A DNA stretch of 64,000 nt, from contig PMSI01000001.1 of NCBI GenBank assembly GCA_003168375.1, positions 1,860,001 to 1,924,000 on the forward strand, read 5' to 3'. Positions 18,140 through 33,030 of the stretch are shown piece after piece. The first letter of the stretch is position 1; each line of letters begins with the position of its first letter. Origin of the DNA: Vulcanimicrobiota bacterium. Lineage in GTDB: Bacteria; Vulcanimicrobiota; Vulcanimicrobiia; Vulcanimicrobiales; Vulcanimicrobiaceae. The position numbers were made by a program, and so were the translations under genes. The notes beneath the pieces were generated by a model. The model was not told the origin of the DNA and searched no databases. It saw only the letters and a list, made by a program, of their open reading frames with translations.

Positions 18140-18343
18140 ATGCTACAAGCCATGACGAACGACCCGATCTTTCCGTCCGCCGGCGCGGCGCTCGCCGCGC
18201 GCGAGCACGTCGAACGGCTCGCGCCGGATGCCGCTCGTGACGAACGCGCGTCGGGGCGCCTGGCGAAGGCGGCCCTGTTCGAGGAAGCCTTGCTCGGCGC
18301 GCTGCGCGCCCACGTCGCGGCGCTCCGGATGGTGGCGAAATGA
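18140..18343 (+). CDS. very short FlgB-like rod protein
   Basis: A 67-residue protein (or 63 from the second ATG at 18152) heading the flagellar cluster. Its C-terminus (LFEEALLGALRAHVAALRMVAK) resembles the C-terminal helix of FlgB, the proximal rod protein. The normal N-terminal helix and central beta region of FlgB (usually about 130 residues) are missing. The assignment rests on position immediately before a FlgC-like gene, with which it overlaps by four bases (ATGA). It may be a reduced rod subunit or an unrelated small protein. Confidence 0.5.
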   Translation: MLQAMTNDPIFPSAGAALAAREHVERLAPDAARDERASGRLAKAALFEEALLGALRAHVAALRMVAK

Positions 18344-18708
18344 GCGAGTTCAACCTCTTGTCGATCGCCGCCGACGGGATGGGCGTGCAGCGCACGCTGC
18401 TCGACGTGGCGGCGCGGAACGTCGCCGCGGCGCAGGCGTCGACGCTGCAGCATCCATATCCGCGGCTCGTCGCGCGTTTCGCGACCCGCGATCCCGAGGA
18501 TGCCTTCATCGCGCTCCCCGGCGACGACGAGGACGGCGACGCTTCCGGGACGAGCTTCACCGGGACCGTGGCGTCGGGCGAGACCGCCGACGCGCTGACC
18601 GAGATGATCGCCGTGCTCGATGCGCAGCGCGCGTACGAAGCGAATGCGAGCGTGTTCGACGTCGGCAAGAAGCTCGCCGATCGCACGCTCGACGTGGGGC
18701 GGCTCTGA
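18340..18708 (+). CDS. flgC: FlgC-like flagellar proximal rod protein
   Basis: A 122-residue protein. The N-terminus (FNLLSIAADGMGVQRTLLDV followed by AARNVAAAQAS) corresponds to the FlgC opening helix and the 'NNIANANT' motif in altered form. The C-terminus (TEMIAVLDAQRAYEANASVF) is the conserved rod/hook C-terminal helix. The central part is shorter than usual. FlgC subunits polymerise into the proximal rod between the MS ring and the distal rod. Next-gene overlap is one base (TGATG). Confidence 0.82.
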   Translation: MSEFNLLSIAADGMGVQRTLLDVAARNVAAAQASTLQHPYPRLVARFATRDPEDAFIALPGDDEDGDASGTSFTGTVASGETADALTEMIAVLDAQRAYEANASVFDVGKKLADRTLDVGRL

Positions 18709-18980
18709 TGCGCGTCGACCTTCTCGTCCCGGACGGTCCGCCGGCCCCGCTCGGACCGCAGCCGGAGCCGGCGCCGAACGCCTTCCAGCGTCTCGTCGAC
18801 GCGGCCGGCGCGATCCTCGAGGGCGCCGACCGGGCCGAAGCGGCGTTCGCCTCACGGCGCGGCGGCCTCCAGGAGATGGTCGTCGAGCGCGCCCGCGCCG
18901 ACATCGCCCTGCAGATCGCGGCGAGCGCAGCGCAGCGTACCGCGCAGTCGATCTCGACCTTGCTCGCGACGCAGATCTGA
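18708..18980 (+). CDS. fliE: FliE, MS ring-rod junction protein
   Basis: A 90-residue protein. It has the FliE layout: a variable proline-rich N-terminus, NAFQRLVDAAGAILEGADRAEAAFASRRGGLQEMVVERARADIALQIAAS with the spaced acidic and hydrophobic pattern, and a C-terminal helix ending STLLATQI. FliE adapts the ring to the rod and is the first substrate of the export apparatus. Position flgC-fliE-fliF is the standard order. Confidence 0.82.
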   Translation: MRVDLLVPDGPPAPLGPQPEPAPNAFQRLVDAAGAILEGADRAEAAFASRRGGLQEMVVERARADIALQIAASAAQRTAQSISTLLATQI

Positions 18981-18983
18981 GCG

Positions 18984-20444
18984 ATGACGCCGGCGGCCGT
19001 TCTCACGCGCGTTCGCGCTTCGTCGCCACGCGCGCGCCTGCTCGGCGCTGGCGCGTTCCTGATCGCAGTCGCGGTCGCGGTGCTCGGGTTCGCCGCCTCG
19101 CGCGATACGCGCGTCGCGCTGTTCGCGACGCCGTTGCGCGGCGACCAACTCGCCGAGGTCGAGCAGCGGCTCGCCGCCTGGAACGTCCCGCACGCGAGTT
19201 CGGCCGACAACGTGCGCGTCGCGCACGGGAAGCGCGGCGAACTGCTGCTGCGGCTCGCGCTGGCCGGCGTCCCGCACGCGCACCTGGCGGGCAGCGCCGA
19301 AGCGCTCGCCCACGTCGGAGCGCTCACCCCGCAAAGCGTCCTCGAGGCGCAGACGCGCGACGCGCTCGCCGCCGACCTTGCGCTGGGGCTGCGCGGCGTC
19401 GACGGCGTCGCCGACGCGCGCATCGTGATCGCACCGTCAAGCGGCGGCGTGTACGCCGACGAACCGCATCGTGATGCGAGCGCGAGCGTGCGCGTGACGC
19501 TCGCGCCCGGAGCACGGCTGGCGGCACGGACCGTCGCGGGGATCAAGGCGTTCGTCGCCGGCGGTGTTCCGGGACTCGATGCCGAGCGCGTCACGGTGCT
19601 CGACGACCGCGGCCCGGCGCTCGACGGCGACGGCGGTGACGATGCGGACGTGCAGGGAGCGTTGCAGAGCGCGCTCGACGCGGCGTTCGGAGCCGGCGCG
19701 ACGATCGTACGCGCCCATCGTGAGCCGCTCGGCGAGCAACGCGAGGTGCGCGACGTGCGCCGCGCTGCGCAGGGCGGGCCGCTCACTCGGAGCACGAGCG
19801 ACGAGCGCTACGCGTCCAGCGCGAAAAAATACTCCAAGAACAGCGCGACCGAGGACCGCGGCAGCGAGACGCGCGAGGAACGGCGCGTCGCATCCGCCGC
19901 GGCGACCCTACGCCTGACCGTTGCGGTCTTCGTCGACGCCGCGCGCGGCCTCGACCTGGCGAAGATCCGCGCGCTGGCCGCCGCGACGGCCGGGATCCGG
20001 GGGGATCGGGGCGACGCGCTCAGCGTCGAGGCCGTCGCGTTCGGCGACGGCTCGCTGGATGCTCCGCACGCCGCACGAGCGCCGGCGTGGGCGCTGCCGT
20101 TCGCGAGCCTGCTGCCGCAACTGCTGACCGGCGCGACCCTGGTACTCGCGGTGGCGTTCGGTGCGCGGCCGCTCGCGGGAGTCGCAGTGCGCGCGATCGA
20201 CCGCGCGGCTGCACGCGGCGCGGCGCGCGGCGTCGCCGGCATACCGCCTGCGCGCGTGTACGCCGCGCTCGACGGGGAACCGCCGCACGTTGCGGCGGCG
20301 ATCATCTCGTCGCTGCCGACGGTCATCGCCGCCGCGGTGCTCGAGCTCTATCCGCCGGAGGCGCGCGCCGCGATCGTGCGCCGCCTCGCGCGCGCCAACT
20401 CCGCACTGGTCCCCGCACCCGAGGAGCTGATTCGTGAGCGCTGA
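18984..20444 (+). CDS. fliF: FliF MS-ring protein with FliG-middle-like C-terminus
   Basis: A 486-residue protein. TM1 is at about residues 18-40 (RLLGAGAFLIAVAVAVLGF). The YscJ/FliF ring-building domain follows (VALFATPLRGDQLAEVEQRL, LLRLALAGVPHAHLAGSAEAL, ADARIVIAPSSGG). TM2 is at about 370-392. Instead of the usual short FliG-binding tail there are about 90 cytoplasmic residues. Within these, LDGEPPHVAAAIISSLPTVI and LELYPPEARAAIVRRLARAN (about 424-470) closely follow the FliG middle domain pattern (EHPQT-IALIL-HL, then LP-EL-AEVVRRIA). The FliG N- and C-terminal (torque) domains are absent. This looks like a partial FliF-FliG fusion. Confidence 0.88.
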   Translation: MTPAAVLTRVRASSPRARLLGAGAFLIAVAVAVLGFAASRDTRVALFATPLRGDQLAEVEQRLAAWNVPHASSADNVRVAHGKRGELLLRLALAGVPHAHLAGSAEALAHVGALTPQSVLEAQTRDALAADLALGLRGVDGVADARIVIAPSSGGVYADEPHRDASASVRVTLAPGARLAARTVAGIKAFVAGGVPGLDAERVTVLDDRGPALDGDGGDDADVQGALQSALDAAFGAGATIVRAHREPLGEQREVRDVRRAAQGGPLTRSTSDERYASSAKKYSKNSATEDRGSETREERRVASAAATLRLTVAVFVDAARGLDLAKIRALAAATAGIRGDRGDALSVEAVAFGDGSLDAPHAARAPAWALPFASLLPQLLTGATLVLAVAFGARPLAGVAVRAIDRAAARGAARGVAGIPPARVYAALDGEPPHVAAAIISSLPTVIAAAVLELYPPEARAAIVRRLARANSALVPAPEELIRER

Positions 20445-20925
20445 GTTCATCGCGCTCGCCGACCTGCTGCGCGGTGTGCCGCTGCCCGCGGAGCCGGTGA
20501 CGCCCGTCGTTCCCATCGTCGAAGAGGCCGCGGTTCGTACCGACGACGTCGCGGCGGACGCCGGCGGCTCGGCTGCGGACGAGGTCGCCGCAGCGTTGCG
20601 CGAAGCGCGCCTGTTTCGCGCGCGGCTGGCGGATGCGTTCGACGACGCGGCGGAACGGCTCGTTCGCGAGCTGGCCGCCGACGTTCTCGCGCGCGAACTG
20701 CGGCTCGCCCCGTGCGACCTGGCGAGCATCGTGCAGCGCGTTGCCGCGCGCGCACCGGCCGTTCGCGTCCGCGTCGCGCCGGCCGACGTCGCGCGCGTTA
20801 CCGGGATCGCCGTGCTCGCGGATCCCGCGCTGTGCGCCGGTGATGCGATCGTCGAAGTCGCCGGCGGCGCGCTCGACGCGCGCCTCGGCGTGCGCCTCGC
20901 GACCGTCCTCGAGGCGTTCGCGTGA
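20434..20925 (+). CDS. fliH: FliH-like export ATPase regulator
   Basis: A 163-residue protein between fliF and fliI. After a short acidic N-terminus, residues about 45-90 form a helix (VAAALREARLFRARLADAFD), followed by the FliH/YscL-like domain (ERLVRELAADVLARELRLAP). The C-terminal part (RVAPADVARVTGIAVLADPAL, IVEVAGGALDARLG) matches the conserved end of FliH. It should bind FliI and link it to the switch proteins. Shorter than typical FliH (about 220-240). Overlaps both neighbours. Confidence 0.8.
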   Translation: MSAEFIALADLLRGVPLPAEPVTPVVPIVEEAAVRTDDVAADAGGSAADEVAAALREARLFRARLADAFDDAAERLVRELAADVLARELRLAPCDLASIVQRVAARAPAVRVRVAPADVARVTGIAVLADPALCAGDAIVEVAGGALDARLGVRLATVLEAFA

Positions 20926-22163
20926 TTGCGCGCCCGACCGGCAGCGTCGTCGCGACGCGCGGTCAGCTGGTCGAGGCCGAGCTTCCCTTCGCGCGCGTCG
21001 GCGACGGCGTCCGCATCTGCGCGCGCGACGTGCGCGTCAACGCGCGGATCGCCGCGCTGCGCGGTGCCCGTGCGGTTCTGGCGCCGTTCGGCGCGCTCGA
21101 CGGCGTCGCGGGCGGCGACCGCGTCGAAGCCGAGCCCGCGGTCCTCGCGCTCCCGCTCGGCACGACGTTGCTCGGACGCGCCGTCGACGCCGTAGGCGCG
21201 CCGCTCGACGGCCGTCCGCGGCCGCTCGGACGGCAGTTCACGACCGATGCCGCGCCGCTCGCGGTCGGTGCGCGGCGTCCGTGCAGCGCGGTCTGCTGGA
21301 CCGGCGTGCGCGCGATCGACGGGCCGCTGGCGATCGGCCGGGGTTCCCGCATCGGTCTGTTCGGCGCACCCGGCGCGGGAAAATCGACGCTGCTCGACCT
21401 GATCGTGCGCGGCGCGCGCGCCGACGCCGTCGTGGTCGGCCTCATCGGCGAGCGCGGGCGGGAGGCGGAGCGCCGGCTCGCAAGCCTCGACGCGCGTTCG
21501 ACCCTGGTCTGCGCGACCGGCGACCGCGCGCCGGCCGAACGGGTTCGTGCCGCCGAGGTCGCCTTCGCGCAGGCTGCGGCGCTGCGCGCGCGAGGGCTGG
21601 ACGTGCTGCTGGTCCTCGACTCGCTGGCGCGGGTGGCGATCGCAGCGCGCGAGCTCGCCCTCGCGGCCGGCGAACCGCCGGGCCGCGGCGGTTACCCGCC
21701 CAGCGTCTTCGGCTTCCTGGCGCGGCTGCTCGAGCGCGCCGGCGCCACTGGCAGCGGCAGCGTTACGCTGATCGCGACCGTGCTCTCCGACGGTCCGGAC
21801 GAGCGCGATCCGGTCTCGGAGGCGGCCCGGGCGGCGCTCGACGGACATTTCGTTCTGGCCGAGCGGCTCGCGCGCGCCGGCCGGTTCCCCGCGATCGACG
21901 TCGCCGCCAGCGCGAGCCGTACGCTCGCAGAGGTCGCCGCCCCCGCGCACCTCGCCGCGGCGCGCGTTCTGCGGTCGGCGATCGCCGCGCTCGACGAGTC
22001 GCGCGATGCGCGGGCGTTGGGCCTGGCCACCGCCGACCCGTTCCTGCTCCGCTGCGTCGCGCTGGAGCCGTCGATCGAGGCGTTCTTGCGGCAAGGCTCC
22101 GAGCCGTCGGAACCCGCCACGACCCTCACGGAACTCACCCGGCTCGCCGATATCCTCACATGA
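20922..22163 (+). CDS. fliI: flagellar-type export ATPase FliI
   Basis: A 413-residue F1-beta-like ATPase. Walker A is GAPGAGKST at about residue 147. LIGERGREAERRL is the family signature, Walker B is LDVLLVLDSLAR, and RGGYPPSVFGFLARLLERAG is the specific T3SS ATPase segment. It hydrolyses ATP to unfold or dislodge export substrates at the cytoplasmic face of the secretion gate. The second family Arg and the DERDPVSEAARAALDGHF region are intact, so it looks functional. GTG overlaps the fliH stop. Confidence 0.95.
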   Translation: MIARPTGSVVATRGQLVEAELPFARVGDGVRICARDVRVNARIAALRGARAVLAPFGALDGVAGGDRVEAEPAVLALPLGTTLLGRAVDAVGAPLDGRPRPLGRQFTTDAAPLAVGARRPCSAVCWTGVRAIDGPLAIGRGSRIGLFGAPGAGKSTLLDLIVRGARADAVVVGLIGERGREAERRLASLDARSTLVCATGDRAPAERVRAAEVAFAQAAALRARGLDVLLVLDSLARVAIAARELALAAGEPPGRGGYPPSVFGFLARLLERAGATGSGSVTLIATVLSDGPDERDPVSEAARAALDGHFVLAERLARAGRFPAIDVAASASRTLAEVAAPAHLAAARVLRSAIAALDESRDARALGLATADPFLLRCVALEPSIEAFLRQGSEPSEPATTLTELTRLADILT

Positions 22164-22780
22164 TGGACGTCTTCGCCGAGATCGCCGCGGTCCAGAACCG
22201 GATCGCGGAGATCACCGGGGCTCCCGCTCCGGGGAGCGCGCCGCCCGAGCTTGCGGCAGGCGCGCCCCGCTTCGCGACCGCGCTGGCCGCCGCGCTGCGG
22301 CCGGGAAATTCAGCCCTCGGGCTGCAGGCGGGCGGCGCGGACGCGCCCGGGAGCGGCGTCCCGGCGACGGTCTCGGCGCCCGTGCCGCCGGCGCAGATCG
22401 ACGCGCTGGTCGAGCAGAACGCCGCGACCTGGCAGGTCGATCCGGCGCTCATCAAGGCCGTGATCGCGAACGAATCGGGATTCAACGCGAACGCCACCTC
22501 GAAGGTCGGTGCGCAGGGGCTCATGCAGCTGATGCCCGAAACCGCGGCGTCGCTCGGCGTGCGCGATGCGTACGATCCGGCGCAGAACGTCGCCGGTGGC
22601 GCCCGCTATCTGCGCGGCTTGCTCGACCGGTTCGGCGGCGACAAGCGGCTGGCGATCGCGGCATACAATGCGGGTCCGGGTGCGGTGGAGAAGTACCGTG
22701 ACGTACCCCCGTATGCGGAGACCCGCAACTACGTTCAAAACGTCCTGGCTTCGTTCGACAAGTACAGCAGCGCTCGCTAG
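22160..22780 (+). CDS. SLT-family lytic transglycosylase
   Basis: A 206-residue protein with a goose-type SLT domain at about residues 78-200. The catalytic Glu is in VIANESGFNANATSKVGAQ, followed by GLMQLMPETAASLGV, AGGARYLRGLLDRFGGD and AAYNAGPGAVEKY. There is no classical signal peptide, so it may be secreted by the flagellar apparatus itself, as FlgJ is. In this operon it would open the peptidoglycan for rod passage. ATGATG overlaps the fliI stop. Confidence 0.92.
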   Translation: MMDVFAEIAAVQNRIAEITGAPAPGSAPPELAAGAPRFATALAAALRPGNSALGLQAGGADAPGSGVPATVSAPVPPAQIDALVEQNAATWQVDPALIKAVIANESGFNANATSKVGAQGLMQLMPETAASLGVRDAYDPAQNVAGGARYLRGLLDRFGGDKRLAIAAYNAGPGAVEKYRDVPPYAETRNYVQNVLASFDKYSSAR

Positions 22781-24317
22781 CGCGCTGCTGTTTTCGCTCG
22801 TCTCGCCCGCCGCAGCGAAGCCTGCGGCGGCCGGACCCGACGTGCCCGTCACGACGATTCTCGCCGCCTACGACCGGGCGACGCACGCCGACGAGGTCAC
22901 GACGCTCCACGCCGAGGGGACGCTGGCCGGCGAGGGGCTCACGGGTACGTTTCGCATCGTACGCGACGGAAAGAACGAACGCGAGGACGACGTGCTCGGC
23001 CCGCGCAGCGAGACCTCGCTGAAGGTCGGTGACCGCTTCTACGTGCGCAATGCGAACGGCAACGTGCGCGAGCTGCGGGGGTACCTGCGGCGGCGCGCGC
23101 GCACCGAAGAGCTGATCGACTCGGGCGAGTTCGTCCGGCATCCCGAACTCACGCGGTTCGCGGGCTGGGGCCAGGCCGGCGGCACGAACGCGTGGCGGCT
23201 CGAGGTGAACGCCGTGGGCGGCGAGCCGGAGACGATGTGGATCGATCCCGCTACCGGTCTGCCGCTCCGGCTCGAGTATCTCGACGGCGACGGTCCCTCG
23301 TTCGTCGACTACTCCGACTGGCGCGACGTCAACGGCCGCAAGATCGCGTTTCGCAACGTGATAAGCGACGGCGACCACCGTTTCGACACCGTGCAGCAGA
23401 TCGCGGCGGTGCAGCTCGACCAGCCGGTCGACGCCGCGAACTTCGCGCCGCTCACTCCGCGCACGCTCAGCGGCGAGGGCGTTCACGTCGTTCCGCTGAT
23501 CGAGCGCGACGGCCACGTCGGCGTGACGGTCCGCATCGCGGACAAGGATTGGTTTTTTCTGCTCGACACGGGCGCGCAGTCGATCCTGGTCGACGGTGCG
23601 GTGCTCAAAGCCGCGGGCGTCGCCGGTCAGGGGGAGATGGAGGTGCGGGGCGCCGCGCGCAGCGGCGGGCTGAGCGCCGCGGTGCTGCCTCGCCTCGAGA
23701 TCGACGGTGCGGCGATGAACGACGTCGTCGTCTCGTCGCTCGACATCGCGCGCAGCCTCGGTGGCGGCCTTCGCATCGACGGGATCCTCGGCTATCCGTT
23801 CTTCGCCTCGGCGGTCGTCGAGATGGATTTCGCGCACCACCTGCTTCGGTTCGGACCGCCCGGTTCGTTCGCGCCGCAGGGAACCCACGTCGATCTCGAC
23901 GTCGACCGCGAGCTCGCCGAAGCGACGCTGCGCATCAACAACCGCCTCGACGCACCGTTCATCGTCGACACCGGTAACAGCGGCGAAATGCTGATCTACC
24001 GGCCGTTCCTCGAGGCCCATCCCGGGGTCGTCCCGTTCTCGGCCGCCTCGTCGTGGAACTACGGGATCGGCGGCGCGAACGCGACGTACCGCACCTCGCT
24101 CGACACGCTGAAGCTCGGCGAGTACGAACTCTACCGCCGCAGCGTCGACGTCGTGTTGGCCAAGGAGGGTGCGTTCGCGGATCGGGTCGACGCGGGCAAC
24201 GTCGGGCTCGGCGTGCTCCGCAACTTCGTCGCGACGTTCGATCTCGCCAACGCGGCGATGTACGTGGCGCGCGGCGAGCAGTTCGACGACGGCAGCTCGC
24301 GCACCGCGCGCCGCTAG
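22713..24317 (+). CDS. secreted protein with two retropepsin-like aspartyl protease domains
   Basis: A 534-residue protein. It has a signal peptide (basic n-region, core AALASALLFSLVSPAAA). Residues about 35-240 resemble an outer-membrane-lipoprotein-sorting-like beta domain (VTTLHAEGTLAGEGLTGTF onward). Two clan AA aspartyl protease-like units follow, each with its own DTG: FLLDTGAQSILVD (about 284) and FIVDTGNSGEMLIY (about 418). Retropepsin folds need two DTG lobes, so this single chain could form one active site. Substrate unknown. The start overlaps the lytic transglycosylase gene by 68 bases; a later start is possible. Its place inside a flagellar operon is unusual. Confidence 0.8.
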   Translation: MRRPATTFKTSWLRSTSTAALASALLFSLVSPAAAKPAAAGPDVPVTTILAAYDRATHADEVTTLHAEGTLAGEGLTGTFRIVRDGKNEREDDVLGPRSETSLKVGDRFYVRNANGNVRELRGYLRRRARTEELIDSGEFVRHPELTRFAGWGQAGGTNAWRLEVNAVGGEPETMWIDPATGLPLRLEYLDGDGPSFVDYSDWRDVNGRKIAFRNVISDGDHRFDTVQQIAAVQLDQPVDAANFAPLTPRTLSGEGVHVVPLIERDGHVGVTVRIADKDWFFLLDTGAQSILVDGAVLKAAGVAGQGEMEVRGAARSGGLSAAVLPRLEIDGAAMNDVVVSSLDIARSLGGGLRIDGILGYPFFASAVVEMDFAHHLLRFGPPGSFAPQGTHVDLDVDRELAEATLRINNRLDAPFIVDTGNSGEMLIYRPFLEAHPGVVPFSAASSWNYGIGGANATYRTSLDTLKLGEYELYRRSVDVVLAKEGAFADRVDAGNVGLGVLRNFVATFDLANAAMYVARGEQFDDGSSRTARR

Positions 24318-24400: not shown

Positions 24401-24928
24401 ATGCAGCAGACCACCGGCGTCGCGGTCCTCGCGACGCAGCTCGCCCAGACCGACCGCCGCGCGCTTTCACAGGCGTGGTACAGCGCGCTCCATTTCGCCG
24501 ACCGCTCCGTCGCCGCTACGCCGGCGGCCGGCGCAGCCGTGTCGCAGCGCTCGCAGCAGCGCGGGCTGTCGCTTGCGACTCCCGCGCCGCATCCCGCCGC
24601 CGAGTCGGTGCGGAGCGGTGGCCGCCCTTCGTCACGCGCCGCCGCTCCGCGCGCGACGAGCGCCGAAGCGCCCGAACGACGGATCGCGCGCAGCGACCTC
24701 GCGCGCCGCATCGAGCGCGGCCTGGCGCACCGCACGCCGCGTAACGGGGCCGCATCGTTCGCGATTCGCGCCGGCGGTGGGCGGATCCATCTGGTCGTTC
24801 GCTCCGATGGAGCGCGCACCCGCGTCGTCGCCGTCTGCGCGCCGCCGCTGCGCGAGCGCGTCGAACGTGCGCTCGCGCAGGCGCGCTTCGTGCTGGCCGG
24901 ACGCGGCGTCCGAACGGAGGTCGCGTGA
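24401..24928 (+). CDS. unassigned flagellar-cluster protein, possibly FliK-like
   Basis: A 175-residue protein with GGAGG about 12 bases before ATG 24401. The first 35 residues are helical; about 36-95 are Ala/Ser/Arg/Pro rich and probably disordered. The last 70 residues are globular (SFAIRAGGGRIHLVVRSDGA, then RERVERALAQARFVLAGRGV), with a beta-beta-helix pattern vaguely like the C-terminal domain of FliK or HrpP-type substrate-switch proteins. I cannot assign it confidently. It lies between the protease and the rod-like gene and is coupled to the latter. Confidence 0.6.
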   Translation: MQQTTGVAVLATQLAQTDRRALSQAWYSALHFADRSVAATPAAGAAVSQRSQQRGLSLATPAPHPAAESVRSGGRPSSRAAAPRATSAEAPERRIARSDLARRIERGLAHRTPRNGAASFAIRAGGGRIHLVVRSDGARTRVVAVCAPPLRERVERALAQARFVLAGRGVRTEVA

Positions 24929-25653
24929 TGAACGGCGCATCGCCGCTCGACGCCTACGAACGCGTCCTCTCGCGAGCGCAGGATCTGCGTGACGCGTTCC
25001 GAGCCGGGAGCGTGCCGCTCAACGCCGACGTGCTCACCGCGCCGCAGATCGTCCCCTCGAACGATCCGCTCAGCATCGTCCCGCCGCCCGGAGCATGGCT
25101 GATCACGCGCGGTGCCGATGGCGTACGCGCCTACGCGCGCGACGGCGCGCTCTCGCTCGACGACGGCGTGCTGCGTACGCGCGACGGCGCGGAGGTGTTG
25201 GGCTATCCCGGCGGCGACGCACGCGGTGCGGTGCCGGTGCCGCTGCGCGTCCCGGAGACCGATCGCGCGCTCGGACGCGCCGCCGCCGCGCGCGTCGAGG
25301 ACGACGGAACCGTTGCCTACCAGCGCGGCGCGATCGACCCGCGCACGGGGACGCGCAGTACCGAGCGTGTCGTGCTCGGCCGCCTCGCGCTCGCGCGGTT
25401 CCCGGCCGGGACGCAGCCGCAGCGGCTCGACACGGCGCGGGTCGCGGTTCCACCCGGTGTCGTCCCGCATCTCGGCACGCCGGCCGACGGAACGTTTCCC
25501 GCCGTCGCGACCTCGAGCCGCGACGCCGGTGCGGTCGACATCGCGGCCGGCGTCGCGCGGCTCGACGAAGCGTACCGCGCGTTCGAAGCGCTCGGCGCGG
25601 CGGTGAAGTCGCGTTCGAGCGTGCAGAAGACCGCCGTGGACCTGGTGAAGTGA
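24928..25653 (+). CDS. FlgF/FlgG-like distal rod (or short hook) protein
   Basis: A 241-residue protein. The middle carries the rod/hook pattern: AYARDGALSLDDGVLRTRDG followed by EVLGYPGGD (compare ytRdG-sf-ld--G-lvt-dG-pvlg), and VLGRLALARFPAGTQPQRLD. The C-terminus (AAGVARLDEAYRAFEALGAA and [11 protein letters not shown]) matches the axial-protein C-terminal helix. The canonical N-terminal NNIAN motif is lacking. ATG 24928, seven bases after CGGAGG, is preferred to the overlapping GTG 24925. It should extend the rod or act as a minimal hook. Confidence 0.75.
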   Translation: MNGASPLDAYERVLSRAQDLRDAFRAGSVPLNADVLTAPQIVPSNDPLSIVPPPGAWLITRGADGVRAYARDGALSLDDGVLRTRDGAEVLGYPGGDARGAVPVPLRVPETDRALGRAAAARVEDDGTVAYQRGAIDPRTGTRSTERVVLGRLALARFPAGTQPQRLDTARVAVPPGVVPHLGTPADGTFPAVATSSRDAGAVDIAAGVARLDEAYRAFEALGAAVKSRSSVQKTAVDLVK

Positions 25654-26441
25654 TTGCCGACGCGACCTTCGCTCCGGCGGACGGCGGAGTGCGGGCGCTG
25701 CGATTCATACCGCGTGCGTCGGTGCCGCTCGAAACGGCGTGCGTCGTCGCGAACGGGATCCGCGAGACGCTGCGGGAGCTGCTCGGCGAGTGCGACCTGG
25801 TGCTCGGGGAACCCTCGGCGCTCGGTCCACCCGCGTGGGCGCTGCTCGCGCACGAGTCGCTGCTGTTCCTCACCCGCGGGCGGCTGACCGACGTCGTGAT
25901 CGTCCTGCCGAAGCGCGACGCCCGGCGGTTGGTGCTGCGGGCGTTCGGAGAGGGCGACGAGCTCCCGGACGGCGCGTGCTCCGCGCTCGAGATGCACGCG
26001 CTGGAACGCATCGCGGCGCGCTGCGCCGCAGCGTTCGAGCCGCTCTGCCGCGGACGGGGCGAGGGCTCGCGGGCGGTTCGGGGACACGAGGTACCCGCGT
26101 GCACCGCCTACTTCGACCTGCGCGTTCGCTCGCCGCTGCCGCTGACGCTCGGTATCGGGATCGTCCGCGATCTGCCGGATCCGGGCCCCACCGCCACGCT
26201 CGCGCCGCGGACACTCGAAGCCGTCACCGTGGACCTGCGCGCCGTTTTTGCCGAAGGAATACTCGACGCGGCGGGCTTCGTTGAGCTCCGGCCGGGGTCG
26301 GTCGTCAAGCTGGAGACCAAGGTCGGCGCTCCGGCATCCTTGAATCTCGGAGCCGGGCGCCTCGCCACTGGGGTTGCCGGCGTCGTAGCTTCGCACACGG
26401 CCTTCCTGGTGCACGACGTCGCGACGGGAGTCCACGCATGA
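25650..26441 (+). CDS. FliM/SctQ-like SpoA-domain protein
   Basis: A 263-residue protein upstream of fliN. The last 70 residues ([20 protein letters not shown] onward) form a SpoA domain, as in FliM, FliN and SctQ. The N-terminal 180 residues are divergent, with a helical middle ([18 protein letters not shown]) and beta regions; the FliM GGXG FliG-binding motif is not visible. With FliN it should build the cytoplasmic ring or pods. Loss of FliG-type contacts fits the absence of a full FliG. GTG overlaps the previous stop. Confidence 0.72.
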
Positions 26442-26695
26442 TCATGACCGAGCAAGGCAAGAACCTCGACCTCCTGATGAACGTGCCGCTGAAGGTGACG
26501 GCGGAGCTCGGCACGTGCAAGATGCTGGTCCGGGACATCCTCAAGCTCGGCACGGGCTCGATCGTCGAACTCGACCGCTTGGCCGGCGGCCCGGTCGACC
26601 TGCTCGTCAACGATCGACTGGTGGCGCGCGGCGAGGTCGTCGCGATCGACGAGAACTTCGGCGTCCGCATCACCGAGCTCATCGAAAAACCCTAG
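26438..26695 (+). CDS. fliN: FliN switch/C-ring protein
   Basis: An 85-residue SpoA-domain protein: [60 protein letters not shown] and FGVRITELI cover the whole FliN core. The N-terminal extension found in longer FliN proteins is absent. It assembles with FliM-type proteins at the base of the export apparatus and docks FliH-FliI. Its ATG overlaps the preceding TGA. Confidence 0.95.
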
Positions 26696-27108: not shown

Positions 27109-27768
27109 ATGGACGACCTTTTCCGCATCGCCCAGCACCCGCACTCGGCGCTGCCGCTCGACGTTCTCGCGGGTCTGACGCTGCTTTCGGTCGCGCCGTT
27201 CGTGCTGGTGCTCTCGACCTCGTTCGTGCGGATCGTCGTCGTCCTATCGCTGGTCCGCTCGGCGATCGGCGCCGCGATGCTTCCGCCGAACGCGGTGCTG
27301 ACCGGTCTGGCGCTCGTCCTGACGTTCGTCGTGATGACGCCCACCTTCGAAGCGGTGCAGCGCGATGCGATTCGGCCGTACGCCGCGGGCAGGCTCACGC
27401 AGTCGGCGTTTCTCGATCGCGCGAGCCGCCCGCTGCGAGCGTTCATGCTGCGGCAGACCAAGGCGCGCGATCTCAACGTCTTCGCGCGCGTCGCGCATCG
27501 GCCCGAGGCTGAGCCGGCGACGGACGCGCCAATGACCGTCGTGATCCCGGCCTTCGTCGTCGGCGAGCTGCGGTCGGCGTTCGCGATCGGCGTCGCGCTC
27601 TATCTGCCGTTCGTCGCGATCGACCTCGCCGTCGCTGCGATCCTGATGGGGCTCGGAATGGTCATGTTGAGCCCGCCGGTGATCTCGCTGCCGTGCAAGC
27701 TGCTGCTGTTCGTCATGGTCGACGGCTGGGCGCTGGTCTGCAACGGCGTCGTCCAAAGCTTTCGTTAG
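27109..27768 (+). CDS. fliP: FliP export gate protein
   Basis: A 219-residue inner-membrane protein. TM1 region LTLLSVAPFVLVLSTSFVRI, TM2 LVLTFVVMTPTFEAV, the charged DRASRPLRAFMLRQTKARDL segment and the C-terminal signature LPFVAIDLAVAAILMGLGMV-MLSPPVISLPCKLL are all typical of FliP/SctR. Five copies form the helical export gate with FliQ and FliR. No cleaved signal peptide of the long enterobacterial type is seen. fliQ follows only 3.2 kb later, after unrelated genes. Confidence 0.96.
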   Translation: MDDLFRIAQHPHSALPLDVLAGLTLLSVAPFVLVLSTSFVRIVVVLSLVRSAIGAAMLPPNAVLTGLALVLTFVVMTPTFEAVQRDAIRPYAAGRLTQSAFLDRASRPLRAFMLRQTKARDLNVFARVAHRPEAEPATDAPMTVVIPAFVVGELRSAFAIGVALYLPFVAIDLAVAAILMGLGMVMLSPPVISLPCKLLLFVMVDGWALVCNGVVQSFR

Positions 27769-27777
27769 AAGCGTCGG

Positions 27778-28338
27778 CTATGCGAGCAGCGCCTTTGCGC
27801 CGGCGTTCGTCGTGACGAACAGTGCGCGCGCGACGGCCTCCGGCGTGCATCCATCGTTTCCGCCGAGCGACATCGTTATGAGACACAGTTGCGCTTCGGC
27901 GAGATATGCCGCGATGAGCCGAGGCGGGAGGAGCGGCGTCGCACTGCGCCGCCTCACGCAGAGCTCCGCGATCCGCGCTTCGAACAACTCGGCCAAGAAG
28001 CGTTGCACGACGCGGCGAGACGGTCCGAGCAGGATCATCCCGGTCATCGCCCGGCTCTCCCACATGTGGCGGACCACGAACTCGAGATCGGCCGACGGAC
28101 GGTTCGCGGTGATCGTATCCGCCAGCGGCGCCAAGAGGAACGCGAGCGTCTCGCGCAAGACGTCTTCTTTGTTCTGAAAGTGCTCGTAGAACGTCGAACG
28201 GCCGACGTTCGCGCGCTCGATGATGCCGCGGACCGACAGCCGAGCGTACCCGCGCTCGAACAGGAGCGCTCGAAACGCGGCAATGACGTCTTGCCGCGTC
28301 CGTTCCACGCGGCGGCCGGGCTTCGTCGAGCTGCTCAC
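27778..28338 (-). CDS. TetR-family transcriptional regulator
   Basis: About 186 residues from GTG 28338 (a longer start at GTG 28389 would run through the operator). The N-terminal helix-turn-helix is classical: RTRQDVIAAFRALLFERGYA, SVRGIIERANVGRSTFYEHF and FQNKEDVLRETLAFLL. The C-terminal ligand domain is TetR-C-like and unassigned. It is divergent from the adjacent membrane protein gene, with a palindrome between them, so it most likely represses that gene and itself. Confidence 0.92.
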   Translation of the reverse strand: MSSSTKPGRRVERTRQDVIAAFRALLFERGYARLSVRGIIERANVGRSTFYEHFQNKEDVLRETLAFLLAPLADTITANRPSADLEFVVRHMWESRAMTGMILLGPSRRVVQRFLAELFEARIAELCVRRRSATPLLPPRLIAAYLAEAQLCLITMSLGGNDGCTPEAVARALFVTTNAGAKALLA

Positions 28339-28372
28339 GGCGTATCTCCCGATGCGGACACTTGGGGGCCGA

Positions 28373-28388
28373 TGTCCGGAATCGGACA
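28373..28388. promoter_or_regulatory. TetR operator candidate
   Basis: TGTCCG-GAAT-CGGACA, a perfect 6-bp inverted repeat with a four-base spacer, between tetR and the divergent membrane protein gene. A further CGGACA half site lies 20 bases to the left (28354-28360 region). Confidence 0.6.
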
Positions 28389-28466
28389 CCGCACCACGAT
28401 GCGCCGGTCGATCTGCACGGCCATCTGATAGGCTCAGGACATCTTCAACCCAGGAGGTGCTTCTGC

Positions 28467-29150
28467 ATGCAGCAGCTCGATACGCGCAGCCCAGCCGCGC
28501 TCGTTCCGGGCGGGCGCGTCGCGGGAGTCGTGATCCTCGCGTCCGCCGTGCTCGCGCTGGGGGCGATCGCGCGTCACCCGACGGTCGGTACGGCGCGAGG
28601 TTCGGCCGACGTTCTCGGTCAGCTCGCCGCGCTCAGCACTGTCGACGAAGTCGTCCATGGCGCCCTCATCGTGCTGATTGGCGGGCTGCTCTTCGGCTTC
28701 ACGGTGTTTTCGCAGCGATGTGGTCTGCACCGCGGGTTCGTTGTCTTCGGTCTGATCGGCTTTGCCGTCGCATCCGCCGGCATGATCGGTGCAGCATTGA
28801 TCGACGGATTCCTGATCCCAGCGCTTGCGTCTCGCTATGCCGGTGCGTCGCCCCAGAGCATCGACACCGCGCTGCACGTGATCGCCGCGGCCGCCGCCGC
28901 GATCCAGATCCTCTCGAAGTTCGCGATCGCGGTCACCGCCGTCGCCGTCGCGTCGTGGTCGGTCGGGCTCGTGCGCTCGACCGGTACGCTGCGGACGGCC
29001 GGCTTCGTCGGGCTCGCATCGGCGGTCGTGTCGGTGGTCATCCTGATCTCGACCCCCCACCTCAACCCGCACAGCCTCGGCATCATCGTCGGCCTCCAGT
29101 CGATCTGGTACGCGACGATCGGAATCTTGCTGATGCGGGGTGATCTCTGA
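28467..29150 (+). CDS. six-helix membrane protein, DUF4386-like
   Basis: A 227-residue membrane protein with AGGAGG eight or nine bases before ATG 28467. About six hydrophobic helices are visible (VAGVVILASAVLALGAIA, ALIVLIGGLLFGFTVF, GFVVFGLIGFAVASAGMIGA, ALHVIAAAAAAIQILSKFAI, AGFVGLASAVVSVVILIS, SIWYATIGILLM). The layout resembles DUF4386-type proteins, function unknown. Regulation by the divergent TetR protein is likely. It may be a small efflux or stress-response membrane protein, but no transport signature is seen. Confidence 0.75.
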   Translation: MQQLDTRSPAALVPGGRVAGVVILASAVLALGAIARHPTVGTARGSADVLGQLAALSTVDEVVHGALIVLIGGLLFGFTVFSQRCGLHRGFVVFGLIGFAVASAGMIGAALIDGFLIPALASRYAGASPQSIDTALHVIAAAAAAIQILSKFAIAVTAVAVASWSVGLVRSTGTLRTAGFVGLASAVVSVVILISTPHLNPHSLGIIVGLQSIWYATIGILLMRGDL

Positions 29151-29245
29151 ATCGCGTCTGACCCGCTTTGTCCAAAGCGCTCCATGGCGGGCGCGATGGA
29201 CACGGCGGCAGTGGGCTTTCACGGAGCGCCGGGGAATGAGCCGGG

Positions 29246-30124
29246 GTGAAGATCGCTGAGAAGCTGGGGACCCGGCGGCCGTTCTTTTCGTTCGAGTTTT
29301 TTCCGCCCAAGAGCGACGAGGCGGAGAAGAACCTGTTTCGGACGATCGAGAGCCTCAAGCCGCTGGACCCCGGGTTCGTCTCGATTACCTACGGCGCGGG
29401 CGGCTCGACGCGCACCCGCACCGTCGACATCGCGAAGCGACTGCGGACCGAGGCCGGCTTCGACGTCATGGCGCACGTGACGTGTGCCGGCGCGACCGCC
29501 GGCGAGCTGCGCGAGCTGCTCGGCGACCTGCGCCGGGGCGGGATCGAGAACATCATGGCGCTGCGCGGCGATCCGCCGCGCGGCAGCGAGACTTTCGTCG
29601 CTGCCGAAGGCGGCTTCCGCTATGCCAGCGACCTGATCGCGCTACTCAAGGCCGAGTTCTCGTTCTGCGTCGGCGGCGCGTGCTACCCCGAGACGCATCC
29701 GGAAGCCCCGAGCCAAGGCGCCGACCTCGCCGCGCTCTCCACCAAGGTGCGCACCGGCGCGGAGTTCCTGGTCACACAGCTATTCTTCGACAACGCGCGC
29801 TACGTCGAGTTCGTCGATCGCGCGCGCAGCTGGGGGATCAGCGTGCCGATCCTTCCCGGCATCATGCCGATCACCAACTACGAGCAGATCGACCGCTTCA
29901 CGCGCCAGTGCGGCGCCACGATCCCGCCGAGTCTGCGCGCCGAGCTCGAGCTGCGCAAGGACGATCCCGACGCGATCGTCGACCTCGGCGTCGCGTACAT
30001 GACGCTGCAGGTCGCCGATCTGCTCGCGCGCGGCGCGCCCGGCGTCCACTTCTACACGCTGAACCGCTCGCCCGCAACCCGCGCCGTCGTCTCGGCATTG
30101 ATGGCCGCCCGCCGCGCGTGGTGA
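29246..30124 (+). CDS. metF: methylenetetrahydrofolate reductase
   Basis: A 292-residue TIM-barrel flavoprotein. FFSFEFFPPKSDEAEKNLF is the N-terminal signature with the catalytic Glu. FVSITYGAGGSTRTRTVDIA, VMAHVTCAGATAGELRELL, ENIMALRGDPPRG and LVTQLFFDNARYVEFVDRAR cover the FAD and folate site. It reduces 5,10-methylene-THF to 5-methyl-THF for methionine synthesis. GTG start. It interrupts the flagellar cluster without functional connection. No riboswitch is recognisable in the 95-base leader. Confidence 0.96.
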   Translation: MKIAEKLGTRRPFFSFEFFPPKSDEAEKNLFRTIESLKPLDPGFVSITYGAGGSTRTRTVDIAKRLRTEAGFDVMAHVTCAGATAGELRELLGDLRRGGIENIMALRGDPPRGSETFVAAEGGFRYASDLIALLKAEFSFCVGGACYPETHPEAPSQGADLAALSTKVRTGAEFLVTQLFFDNARYVEFVDRARSWGISVPILPGIMPITNYEQIDRFTRQCGATIPPSLRAELELRKDDPDAIVDLGVAYMTLQVADLLARGAPGVHFYTLNRSPATRAVVSALMAARRAW

Positions 30125-30161
30125 TCACCACGGCGTAACGGTCGCGTCATATTGGCGTGCA

Positions 30162-30764
30162 ATGATTGAAGGCGTGTCAGTTCGGTTCTGGATGGCCGCC
30201 GTAGTCGTGGCGGCCGTGTCGATGGCGCATCGCCCGGCTACATGTCCACGACGAGCGCCGGATCGTAACGACCCATCGGCGATCCACCCACGGGACGGCC
30301 AAGTGGATATGGCTTTCGTCTATGACTCGGCAACACGCTTCAATGAATGCATCATCGGCAATCTAGACGCGATCGATGCTGCTTTGACGGGGATATTGGC
30401 GGGTGCCGTAGCGATCGCCGTATTTACTATCGAAAAGATCATACATGTCGCGACACTTGCGGAGCGCGCTGCAATTGTGCTGCTCGCGGCTTCCATCGCC
30501 TGTTGCGCGGTCGGCTATCTCGTGGGTTTCACAAGTCGGGTCAGCAATCGGGACGGCGTGCGTCCTCGAGCATTTTTCGGCGACTTGACGATGCGACCGC
30601 GAGAGGCGATGCTCGGAGCCGTGCAGGCCCTCATTGCTGCATCAGAAACGAACCTTAGCGTTCGGCTATGCAAACGCATCCTGGCAGGTTGCGCCGTAAC
30701 TTTCTTGGTCGCAGCCGTAGTGATCGTTGCTGTCGTTCAATCAGAAGGCGGTATGGTACACTAA
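30162..30764 (+). CDS. Pycsar-effector/SLATT-like membrane protein
   Basis: A 200-residue membrane protein with visibly lower GC than its neighbours; ATG 30309 is an alternative start giving 151 residues and a cleaner fold. From there: a soluble helix (ATRFNECIIGNLDAIDAA), a TM hairpin (LTGILAGAVAIAVFTIEKII and AAIVLLAASIACCAVGYLVG), a cytoplasmic segment (RAFFGDLTMRPREAMLGAVQ, ASETNLSVRLCKR) and a final TM helix. This order resembles the DUF5706/Pycsar effector TM and SLATT families. It is coupled (TAATG) to a 67-residue protein. Function in defence is inference only. Confidence 0.6.
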   Translation: MIEGVSVRFWMAAVVVAAVSMAHRPATCPRRAPDRNDPSAIHPRDGQVDMAFVYDSATRFNECIIGNLDAIDAALTGILAGAVAIAVFTIEKIIHVATLAERAAIVLLAASIACCAVGYLVGFTSRVSNRDGVRPRAFFGDLTMRPREAMLGAVQALIAASETNLSVRLCKRILAGCAVTFLVAAVVIVAVVQSEGGMVH

Positions 30765-30967
30765 TGTCCATGGAAAGAGACGACACCGACAAGGAATTCA
30801 CGTTCGACGAGGGTTTCAAAGAACTTGGCGAGCGCATCCGAAAAGCGGATGGCATCGTTCCGCTCAAGGCGGGTGAGATCCGGCCGCCGGACTTCTATCT
30901 CGTCAATCACTACTTGGGACGCGGCCGTAAGCCGCTGCCGCCGCCGAAGAATCAGGCGAAGAGCTAA
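30764..30967 (+). CDS. small soluble protein paired with the membrane protein
   Basis: A 67-residue acidic-then-basic protein (MERDDTDKEFTFDEGFKELG, ending GRGRKPLPPPKNQAKS). Its start overlaps the upstream stop, so the two are a unit. No family is recognised. It could be a regulator or partner of the membrane protein. Codon use and GC match its partner rather than the flagellar genes. Confidence 0.6.
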   Translation: MSMERDDTDKEFTFDEGFKELGERIRKADGIVPLKAGEIRPPDFYLVNHYLGRGRKPLPPPKNQAKS

Positions 30968-31013
30968 CAGGCCAGCAACGCTCCGGTAACACACGCCCGG
31001 ATATGCTGGGCGT

Positions 31014-31280
31014 GTGGATGGATTCGACGGTCTCCTGCGCGATGCGCTGCTCGTCACGGCGCTGCTGACGCTGCCGGTGCTCATCGTCGCGACGGTCGTC
31101 GGGGCGAGCGTTGCGATCGTGCAAGCGGCGACGCAGGTGCAGGAACAGACGCTGACGATGCTGCCGAAGATCCTGGCCGTCGGCGCGGTGATCGTCCTGT
31201 TCGGACAGTTCGGGATGCAGCTCTGCGCGCAGCTGCTCCACGAGGTCGTCGCGCGGATGCCGCTGCTGGCGAGGGGCTGA
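31014..31280 (+). CDS. fliQ: FliQ export gate protein
   Basis: An 88-residue protein with two transmembrane helices: LLVTALLTLPVLIVATVVGA and MLPKILAVGAVIVLFGQFGM, joined by the conserved VAIVQAATQVQEQTLT loop characteristic of FliQ/SctS. It forms the outer part of the FliPQR gate. GTG start. It begins the second flagellar block, 46 bases after the lower-GC cassette. Confidence 0.95.
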   Translation: MDGFDGLLRDALLVTALLTLPVLIVATVVGASVAIVQAATQVQEQTLTMLPKILAVGAVIVLFGQFGMQLCAQLLHEVVARMPLLARG

Positions 31281-31282
31281 TC

Positions 31283-32011
31283 GTGGCGCCGTTCGACGCG
31301 ACGGCGTGGCTGGTGTTCGCACGCTCCGCCGGACTGGTCGCGCGCGCGCCGGGTTTCTCGCATCCGTCGGTGCCGCCGCCGGTACGCGCCGGGTTCGCGC
31401 TGGCGCTCGCGTTCGCGGTCGCGCCGACGGTCCGGTCCGGTCGTGAGCTTGGTTTAGGGGCGTTCACCGTCGCGTTGGCCGGTGATTTCGCGATCGGCGC
31501 GGCGATCGGGTTCGGTGCGTCGCTACTGTACGACGGAGCGTACTTCGCGGGCCGCACCATCGACGACTACCTCGGCGTGCGCGGCAGCGTGCCGGGTGCG
31601 AACGTGGCGAGCGCGCAGGCGTTCGGGCGGCTGTGGTCGTCCGTGTTCCTGGCTGCGTTCGTGCTGCTCGACGGCTGGGTGCCGGTCGTGCGCGCGTTCG
31701 CGGACTCGTTCGCGCACGTCGCGCCGGGTGGTGTCATCGCCGGCGAGGGCTGGATGGCGTTCGCGCTCGCGCTTCCCGCGACGGTTCTGCGGGCGGTGTT
31801 CGCGGTCGCCGCTCCGGCGATCGCAGTCGCGGCGGCGCTCCAGCTCGCGCTCGCCGCGGTTGCGCGAGTGGTGCCGCGCTTCTCGAGCTTCACGCTCGCG
31901 TTTCCGGCCGTGTTCGCGGCCGCGCTGATCGTGACGCTGTCGACCGTCTCGGTTCTGGCGCCGCTCGGTGCGCGTCCGTGGCTGGTGTTGCCGTGGAGTG
32001 CAGCGCGGTGA
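31283..32011 (+). CDS. fliR: FliR export gate protein
   Basis: A 242-residue membrane protein with about six helices. VFARSAGLVARAPGFSHPSV followed by PPPVRAGFALALAFAVAP matches the FliR/SctT N-terminus. GDFAIGAAIGFGASLLYDGA and YFAGRTIDDYLGVRGS correspond to the conserved central helices, although the usual GxxxD..MGF motif is altered. One copy completes the FliP5Q4R1 gate. GTG start two bases after fliQ; stop overlaps flhB. Confidence 0.9.
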   Translation: MAPFDATAWLVFARSAGLVARAPGFSHPSVPPPVRAGFALALAFAVAPTVRSGRELGLGAFTVALAGDFAIGAAIGFGASLLYDGAYFAGRTIDDYLGVRGSVPGANVASAQAFGRLWSSVFLAAFVLLDGWVPVVRAFADSFAHVAPGGVIAGEGWMAFALALPATVLRAVFAVAAPAIAVAAALQLALAAVARVVPRFSSFTLAFPAVFAAALIVTLSTVSVLAPLGARPWLVLPWSAAR

Positions 32012-33030
32012 GCGATTCAGAAGAGAAACGGTTCGAACCGACGCCGTCGCGGCTGCGGCGCGCGCAGCGCGAGGGCAACGTCACGCGCTCCGGCGAGGTC
32101 AGCAGCGTCGCCGCGTTCGCCGCCGCGACGCTCGCGTCGACGGCGGCGGTCCCGCTCGCGGCTGCGGGTGCCGCTGCGGCGGTGCGCGACGCCGCCCGCG
32201 GTACGTTCGGACCGGACGGCGGGCTCGGCGGCCTCGGCGCGGTCGCGCTCGCCGCGTTGATGCCGGCGGCAGCCGCCGCGGCGGCGGGGACGTTGGCCGG
32301 CCTGGCGCAGGGCGGCGGCCTCCATGTCGTCGCCGTGCGCGCCGATCTCAAGCGGCTCGATCCGTTCGCGGGTCTGAAGCGCATGGCCGGGGGCGAGGCG
32401 CTGGTCGCGCTCGCGCGTGCGGCGCTCGCGTTCGTCGCCGCGCTCGCGGCGATGATCCCGCTCGCGCGCGAGATCGTCGCCGGCGGCGCAACGCTCGGTT
32501 CGCCACGGCCGGCCGCGACGCTGGTCGCCTCGGCCGCACTTCGGGCGTGCGGTGCTGCGCTTGCGGTCGGTGCGGTGTTTGCGGTCGCCGACTACGCGCT
32601 CGCCCGCCGCCGCCGGCTGCGTGGCTTGCGGATGTCGTTCGACGAGCTGCGGCGCGACGCCAAGGAGAACGACGGCGATCCGCAGGCGCGCTCGCGCCGG
32701 AAGAACGCTCACCGTGCGGTCGTCCGCGGCTCCGTCGGGCGTACGCGCGAGGCGTCGTTCGTGGTCGTCAACCCGACGCACGTCGCGGTCGCGCTCCGGT
32801 ACGCTCCACCGGCCGTTCCCGTCCCCGAGATCCTGGTTCGCGCGCTCGACGATGCCGCGCTCCGCGTGCGCGCGATCGCGCGCGAACATCGCATCCCCGT
32901 CGTCGAGGACGTCGCGCTCGCGCGGCTGCTGTACGCACGCGGCGAAGGCGGTCGCCCGATCCCGGCCGATGCGTACGTCGCGGTCGCGCAGATCGTCGCC
33001 GCCCTCGCCCGCGAGGGACTGCTCGCGTGA
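32008..33030 (+). CDS. flhB: FlhB export switch protein
   Basis: A 340-residue protein. The N-terminus is KRFEPTPSRLRRAQREGNVT, characteristic of FlhB/SctU. Four transmembrane helices follow, then the cytoplasmic domain with the auto-cleavage motif NPTH in SFVVVNPTHVAVALRY at about residue 253. IPVVEDVALARLLYARGEGG and IPADAYVAVAQI are conserved. Cleavage between Asn and Pro changes export specificity from rod/hook-type to late substrates. The intact motif suggests a functional switch. GTG start overlaps fliR. Confidence 0.95.
   Translation: MSDSEEKRFEPTPSRLRRAQREGNVTRSGEVSSVAAFAAATLASTAAVPLAAAGAAAAVRDAARGTFGPDGGLGGLGAVALAALMPAAAAAAAGTLAGLAQGGGLHVVAVRADLKRLDPFAGLKRMAGGEALVALARAALAFVAALAAMIPLAREIVAGGATLGSPRPAATLVASAALRACGAALAVGAVFAVADYALARRRRLRGLRMSFDELRRDAKENDGDPQARSRRKNAHRAVVRGSVGRTREASFVVVNPTHVAVALRYAPPAVPVPEILVRALDDAALRVRAIAREHRIPVVEDVALARLLYARGEGGRPIPADAYVAVAQIVAALAREGLLA

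Follow-up and report, generated by a model that had tools for sequence, protein, structure and literature searches.

In studied flagella, FliG connects membrane ring, switch and stator with one another. The window, by which we mean the whole stretch of 64,000 nucleotides analysed here, comes from a poorly known bacterial group from soil and carries a flagellar-type export cluster in which fliH overlaps the end of fliF at the place where fliG is expected, and no fliG lies between them. A sequence-only reading had pointed to this arrangement and had proposed that the C-terminus of FliF itself contains a segment resembling the middle domain of FliG (FliG_M). What has become of FliG in this system, and what kind of machine is left?

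The C-terminal tail of FliF

The features of the cluster are collected in Table 1. FliP and FliN pass their NCBIfam equivalog cut-offs, and FliF (65 of 130 bits), FlhA (615 of 772), FlhB, FliI and FlgC remain below theirs; the type III secretion system (T3SS) of the window is diverged. With E. coli queries, no match to fliC, motA, motB, flgD or flgI was found in the window. The gap of ~3.2 kb between fliP and fliQ (27768–31014) holds genes with no apparent link to secretion; visual inspection suggests a TetR-like regulator and a metF-like gene among them.

Table 1 Features of the export gene cluster in the window
Feature	Position	Strand	Evidence and remarks
FlgB-like rod ORF, 63 aa (weak assignment)	18152–18343	+	No Pfam match; some relatives have a homologue at this site, and clusters outside the class have flgB here
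FlgC-like rod protein	18340–18708	+	Flg_bbr_C 4e-6; TIGR01395 FlgC 1.7e-13, below its cut-off
FliE-like protein	18708–18980	+	No Pfam match; assigned by position and by weak phmmer matches to the ORFs of L074 and L101 that occupy the fliE site
FliF (MS-ring protein) with FliG_M-like C-terminus, 486 aa	18984–20444	+	Pfam YscJ_FliF 4.5e-22, YscJ_FliF_C 2.4e-9, FliG_M 1.7e-7
FliG_M-like domain, FliF residues 423–472	20250–20399	+	Pfam, profile–profile comparison, predicted fold
FliH	20434–20925	+	Pfam FliH 4.3e-6
FliI-type export ATPase	20922–22163	+	ATP-synt_ab 2.5e-59, T3SS_ATPase_C 1.5e-5
Lytic transglycosylase (SLT)	22160–22780	+	Pfam SLT 1.7e-31; most clusters outside the class also have an SLT gene following fliI
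Aspartyl-protease-like protein	22842–24317	+	Asp_protease_2 4.5e-17; inside the export operon, in the operons of only some relatives
ORF at fliK position	24401–24928	+	No Pfam match; kept at this site in many relatives; several clusters outside the class have a fliK-like ORF here
FlgE/F/G-like rod or hook protein	24925–25653	+	LlgE_F_G_D1 2.3e-4, FlgEFG_subfam 9e-6, both below cut-off
FliM-like protein (CheC-like middle domain and SpoA), likely partner of the FliF tail	25650–26441	+	FliMN_C 1.2e-7; AF2 model matches FliM
FliN	26438–26695	+	FliMN_C 4.8e-26; TIGR02480 over its cut-off
FliP	27109–27768	+	Pfam FliP 1.5e-71
FliQ	31014–31280	+	Bac_export_3 5.9e-21
FliR	31283–32011	+	Bac_export_1 1.3e-30
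FlhB	31993–33030	+	Bac_export_2 6.4e-70
FlhA	33027–35093	+	FHIPEP 4.6e-191; included in the FlhA tree

The residue strings quoted in the sequence-only reading are present in FliF where it had placed them, and the FliG_M similarity itself was confirmed. FliG_M scores 31.8 bits on the window FliF against a Pfam cut-off of 25 (hmmscan), and a search with the tail alone gives E = 1.3e-8. Neither FliG_N nor FliG_C was found in the FliF ORF by the same Pfam search. The segment follows a hydrophobic stretch that we judged by eye to be the second membrane helix of FliF, and it matches positions 2–51 of the 76 in the FliG_M profile, roughly the first 50. On this sequence evidence, the tail appears to be a truncated, FliG_M-like domain and not a complete FliG_M.

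The similarity extends to the relatives of this FliF. In a set of 45 tails, which excludes rows L018 (assembly gap) and L049 (FliF from another class, full length), Pfam FliG_M matches 42 at E ≤ 1e-3 and all 45 at E ≤ 10, and MgtE_N matches 13 and 41 at the same thresholds. With an FliG_M HMM built from 12 ordinary FliGs, 41 of the 45 tails score above every one of 4500 shuffled tails. The type-2 HMMs place 38 tails above the best shuffle for FliG_M and 29 for FliG_N, and not one of the 45 exceeds it with the ordinary FliG_N, ordinary FliG_C or type-2 FliG_C HMMs. Chance or composition as the source of the FliG_M match is ruled out by the shuffle and reversal controls.

In profile–profile comparison (hhalign), the main tails align with type-2 FliG_M at 3e-7 and with ordinary FliG_M at 2e-6, and the tails of f3, one of the three families of the window class, align with FliG_M at 4e-8 and 1.5e-8. 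The other candidates reach at best 2e-4 for FliG_N (8e-4 with the main tails), 0.08 for FliG_C and 0.048 for the FliF C-terminus (FliF_C). The tail could nevertheless be a FliF C-terminus joined to FliG_N, in which the normally split FliF_C:FliG_N domain has been made whole. Work by Lynch in 2017 is said to have found that this split domain resembles the other FliG domains, and type-2 FliG_N does resemble the tails somewhat, as its hhalign values and the 29 tails above the shuffles indicate. However, joined FliF_C+FliG_N profiles align with the main tails only at 0.25 and 2e-3 and with the f3 tails at 0.08 and 5e-4, whereas FliG_M in the same test gives 6e-7 to 2e-6 and about 2e-8 to 4e-8, respectively. 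Furthermore, Pfam FliG_N matches a single tail of the 45, at E = 0.19, and the EHPQ-like motif of the tail aligns with FliG_M without gaps. Since the motif trimming cut some rows badly, L060 and L071 among them, the joined-domain test carries less weight than the comparison with unjoined FliG_N profiles. We regard a joined FliF_C:FliG_N domain as rather improbable.

The tail contains the most conserved 40-residue stretch of FliF (residues 429–468 in 45 FliF sequences). E432 is invariant in the 45 tails, and at least 90% of them also carry P433 and H435. The window residues E432-P433-P434-H435 (EPPH) align ungapped with the EHPQ site of FliG_M but do not reproduce EHPQ itself; compared with the FliM-contact motif EHPQ(R), the first E is the residue that never varies, and the P two residues on is present in the window. 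In the AF2 model of FliF 395–486, the block means of pLDDT are 94–97 for model residues 31–70 and 88 for 71–80. Foldseek with this model returns FliG, FliG–FliM or C-ring entries at all of ranks 1–15, none of them below E 0.001, and several top matches superpose at 0.7–0.9 Å over about 50 columns. FliG, FliG–FliM and C-ring entries also occupy ranks 1–9 of the VIA list (Z 8.1–9.3), with lower Z for YlxF (6.7), MgtE (at most 6.6) and one chain from the FliF_C:FliG_N complex (5.0), although a VIA Z under ~13 may reflect merely an arrangement common in helical folds. The ARM-like FliG_M fold that had been anticipated for the tail is thus what the AF2 model predicts.

The MgtE and YlxF chains, which come next after FliG in the VIA list, represent a further possible source. 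The tail may be a captured ARM domain of the MgtE_N/MotE/YlxF type, a paralogue of FliG_M, and no remnant of FliG. FliG_M and MgtE_N are related, as the 13 tails matched by MgtE_N indicate, and the MgtE_N-CBS proteins of these genomes match FliG_M in turn; an MgtE_N protein also lies near fliI in an ordinary flagellar locus on contig C6 of the source genome. Because the MgtE_N proteins score up to 32 bits with FliG_M, the odds of descent from FliG are slightly reduced. However, these proteins score 89–101 bits with MgtE_N, and all eight that were checked favour MgtE_N by ~60 bits or more, unlike the window tail, in which FliG_M is ahead of MgtE_N by 21 bits (35.4 versus 14.2). YlxF-like proteins of the phylum align with the tails only at 1.5e-3 and 3e-3 (hhalign). 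The gene absent at the fused site is fliG, and in the three loci examined of sister-type systems (related clusters outside the class, described below) the ORF that separates fliI from SLT resembles, on visual inspection, a coiled-coil FliJ and not MgtE_N. We consider capture of such a domain unlikely.

The tail remains short and diverged. Its E-values with FliG_M improve on those of FliG_M with its paralogue FliG_N (9e-6, 1e-4) by no more than about one to four orders, and true FliG_M–FliG_M pairs are far stronger (6e-27 by hhalign); ordinary FliG_M aligns with the YlxF-like profile at 4e-6. Phmmer with the window FliF finds just three of the nine sister-type FliGs first read. The assignment to FliG_M rests on no single E-value; it rests on FliG_M being consistently the best among related candidates by about three orders, and on gene order. 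The profile–profile check that had been suggested for this segment prefers FliG_M over FliG_N, FliG_C, the FliF C-terminus, the joined FliF_C+FliG_N domain and YlxF/MotE-like proteins.

FliG and motor genes in the source genome and the phylum

The source genome (G000) encodes a second, ordinary flagellum. On contig C6, a complete 360-aa FliG lies beside ordinary FliF, FliH, FliI, FlgD, FliM, FliN, MotA and MotB, and this FliF ends in the usual C-terminal tail. The MgtE_N protein of this locus is MotE/YlxF-like and located close to fliI (L059, 11110–12546, − strand). A complete fliG elsewhere that binds this FliF had been named as an observation that would refute the proposal. A complete fliG does exist in the genome of the window, but it belongs with the ordinary flagellum, whose FliF keeps the usual tail, and genomes without FliG_C still keep the fused FliF.

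Of 149 genomes searched in the phylum Ca. Eremiobacterota, 136 contain FliF-like matches and 76 contain FliG_C; the counts for flagellin, MotB, FlgD and FlgI are 61, 59, 55 and 56, respectively. The class of the window (families f1–f3) is represented by 117 genomes, in which window-type FliF with the tail was found in 101 and FliG_C in 49. This class tally was counted by script from the genome lists, and its totals agree with the searches for five families. Window-type FliF was not found in 14 class genomes, and two others were not counted as tail-bearing: G086, with a partial FliF at a contig edge, and G052, in which the match ends at residue 427. The tail is present and FliG_C absent in 57 class genomes, 36 of which are at least 90% complete. 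None of these 36 yielded flagellin, MotB, FlgD or FlgI, and all of them have a match to the FliM-like alignment, which in f3 is weak and often covers only the C-terminal part. The stator-contacting part that had been predicted to be missing is thus absent as FliG_C from the 57 tail-keeping genomes, and MotB is absent from all 36 near-complete ones. Flagellar genes appear in three of the other 21, less complete genomes: flagellin and FlgI in G120, flagellin and FlgD in G069, and flagellin, MotB, FlgD and FlgI in G032.

That the fused FliF cooperates with the complete FliG of the ordinary flagellum, in a hybrid or second motor, is conceivable for G000, which encodes a complete FliG and MotB on C6. 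The 36 near-complete genomes, however, keep the fused FliF without FliG_C, flagellin, MotB, FlgD or FlgI, and the usual FliG-binding end of the C6 FliF is missing from the window FliF. No separate FliG stood out in the 17 FliG_C-less genomes that were searched for FliG_N and FliG_M; the FliF tail is the best FliG_M match in 16 of them, and in the exception, G027, it ranks below a 442-aa ORF that is an MgtE_N-CBS protein. We hold such cooperation to be very improbable. A complete separate FliG serving the window-type system was rejected on the FliG_M and FliG_N searches of these 17 genomes and on the absence of FliG_C from the 57.

Of the ORFs that compete with the tail for FliG_M, eight were checked (seven from FliG_C-less genomes, that of G027 among them, and one from G000), and all eight are MgtE_N-CBS proteins and not FliG. 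Soluble-looking PRC/MgtE_N/CBS proteins of ~440–515 aa recur in the class (L003 727–2220; L144–L150), and the MgtE channel domain is absent from their Pfam listing. In some genomes, window-type FliF is encoded at two or three loci (L047 and L048 in G035; G096).

A FliM-like candidate partner

The AF2 model of the protein encoded at 25650–26441 has the FliM of solved C-rings as its top matches (E 4.7e-11), and the protein is thus predicted to adopt the FliM fold. Its contact with the FliF tail is inferred, without binding data. All 12 FliM rows of ordinary or sister type, which represent 11 genes, have an intact GGXG motif. None of the 16 window-type rows does; 12 of these have FGE and the others FGG-D-I, FSE, FGD or FGV. 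The FliF tails that go with the altered rows carry EPPH or EP[AV]H. Two of the three f3 FliMs have GGPG or GGQG and the third DGPG, and the tails of the same genomes carry ESPH or ESPR. Coevolved contacts between FliM GGXG and FliG EHPQ are reported in a review (PMC7355467). The joint shift in the FliM loop and the FliF tail motif fits a contact that has been kept without proving it; the two changes could be independent. The N-terminal motif LSQxEID of FliM, which has a role in CheY binding, occurs in the E. coli and C6 proteins, and the FliM of L068 has ISQxEID. LSQxEID was not visible in the first 30 residues of the window-type and sister-type rows, of which the ORF starts are uncurated.

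Sister-type systems and a proposed static machine

In 13 genomes outside the class (L070–L078, L090, L091, L098, L101), the clusters examined contain fliG as a complete gene of its own. The fliG gene adjoins fliF in 11 of these loci and lies ~2 kb from it in G008; in G007, FliF was not found in the 4.6 kb upstream of fliG. Single-contig stretches of G145, G005, G006, G008 and G011 have the window order fliH, fliI, SLT, flgE/G-like, fliM, fliN, fliP, fliQ, fliR, flhB and flhA, with fliH not recognised in G145. The second half of the cluster was not found beside SLT in G003 and G001, and within the window class the f3 clusters are split in two. Two adjacent fliG-like genes occur in L091 (9207, 10734) and L101 (9831, 10870), the second L101 gene being weakly similar. 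Of the 27 outside-class genomes with FliG_C, 16 lack flagellin and 14 lack both flagellin and MotB.

The sister-type systems share gene order and FlhA clade with the window system, but they differ in having a separate FliG with FliG_N, FliG_M and FliG_C, and their FliF has a usual-looking C-terminal tail. At FliG position 281 (E. coli numbering), all 12 ordinary proteins, that of E. coli among them, have R, and all 14 sister-type copies have an acidic residue, E or D. None of the 14 has R at position 297, although three ordinary FliGs also have P there, and K264 is kept in all 26. These residues have a role in torque. The comparison excludes row L049, which duplicates the L073 gene, and the weaker of the two fliG-like ORFs of L101, which fell below threshold.

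In the FlhA tree, from which five rows of a first, long-branch version were dropped (L113, L116, L122, L127, L112), sister-type and window-class systems form one clade (100/100), within which the window class (100/100) and the sister type (98/96) are each supported. The ordinary flagella of Eremiobacterota come next with weak support (86/65). The window FlhA does not group with the SctV proteins, unlike injectisomes; only four SctV rows and no Myxococcales sequence were included. The simplest order, as far as these sequences indicate and without a formal test of the root, would be a copy of the flagellum, loss of the motor, and then FliG cut to a clamp and fused. That torque was lost first, and FliG_N and FliG_C later, is inferred. 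Two large genomes of other classes, G134 and G005, have 12–13 FHIPEP matches each, many of the C-terminal half only (e.g. L118, L120, L128), a pattern of expansion of FlhA C-domain-like proteins. FliF-like ORFs of 530–548 aa without a T3SS neighbour in the stretch fetched were also seen (L099 and L143 in G134:C58; L100 in G136:C125).

We think it probable that FliG has been reduced to its FliM-clamping domain and fused to FliF, as a static C-ring anchor in a motor-less, flagellum-derived T3SS. The proposal that FliG was reduced to one FliM-contacting domain on the ring remains the best-supported reading, with the FliM contact itself only inferred. The view of the system as the swimming motor of the cell had to be corrected to an ancient, class-wide secretion system. 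The system would be a second T3SS machine, derived from a flagellum that lost its motor. FliG would have shrunk to the first ~50 residues of its middle ARM domain, attached to the cytoplasmic C-terminus of FliF, with loss of the FliF_C:FliG_N joint and of the torque-generating FliG_C. The FliF oligomer would present one FliG_M clamp per subunit just under the membrane, and the FliM-like protein and FliN may bind these clamps to form a static C-ring or sorting platform that keeps FliH–FliI close to the FliPQR–FlhB–FlhA gate. Substrates would exit via a short FlgB/FlgC/FlgG-like rod, for which the SLT enzyme may open the wall. With no FliG_C and no stators, the machine would be unable to turn. 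Ring assembly and secretion activity of the window system are inferences.

A laboratory FliF–FliG fusion was reportedly described by Thomas in 2001. The laboratory fusions of Vibrio (FliFG ring, PMC11481574) and Salmonella (PMC6079021) likewise place FliF and FliG in one chain in the ring, but they are engineered or mutant, whereas the window fusion is natural and class-wide and contains just ~50 residues of FliG_M. The motor-less basal bodies of Buchnera have also lost flagellin, MotA and MotB and retained basal body and export genes, but Buchnera keeps a separate FliG (38 kDa), and its structure is the reduced flagellum of a symbiont and not a second system (PMC8109811). The early non-flagellar (NF) T3SS of the Myxococcales type is likewise flagellum-derived and without motility essentials; the source treats FliE, FlgB and FlgC as lacking an NF-T3SS homologue, whereas the window system has FlgC and FliE/FlgB-like genes (PMC3459982). 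Titles and abstract openings of the open-licence literature, among the matches listed, contain no description of a natural FliF–FliG_M fusion or of an Eremiobacterota T3SS.

A wider proposal, which in our view could go either way, is that the class-wide system in Eremiobacterota is a type III machine of a third kind, distinct from both the swimming flagellum and the injectisome. Rod proteins and a transglycosylase would be present, whereas a hook cap, a filament, a P-ring and a stator would be absent; its C-ring would be fixed to the membrane ring by FliF's own FliG_M, and the phylum would retain the steps from an ordinary FliG through a separate FliG with reversed torque charge to the fused clamp. 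If this holds, a natural clamp-only FliG on FliF would separate the export-structural role of FliG from its torque role, and the phylum would offer a stepwise record of how a flagellum became a secretion machine outside the injectisome lineage covered by our sampling. For Vulcanimicrobium alpinum WC8-2 (3.50 Mbp), it is reported that flagella were not seen, that the flagellin gene is absent and that type IV pili are present (PMC9758169). This cultured Vulcanimicrobium relative makes the proposal testable.
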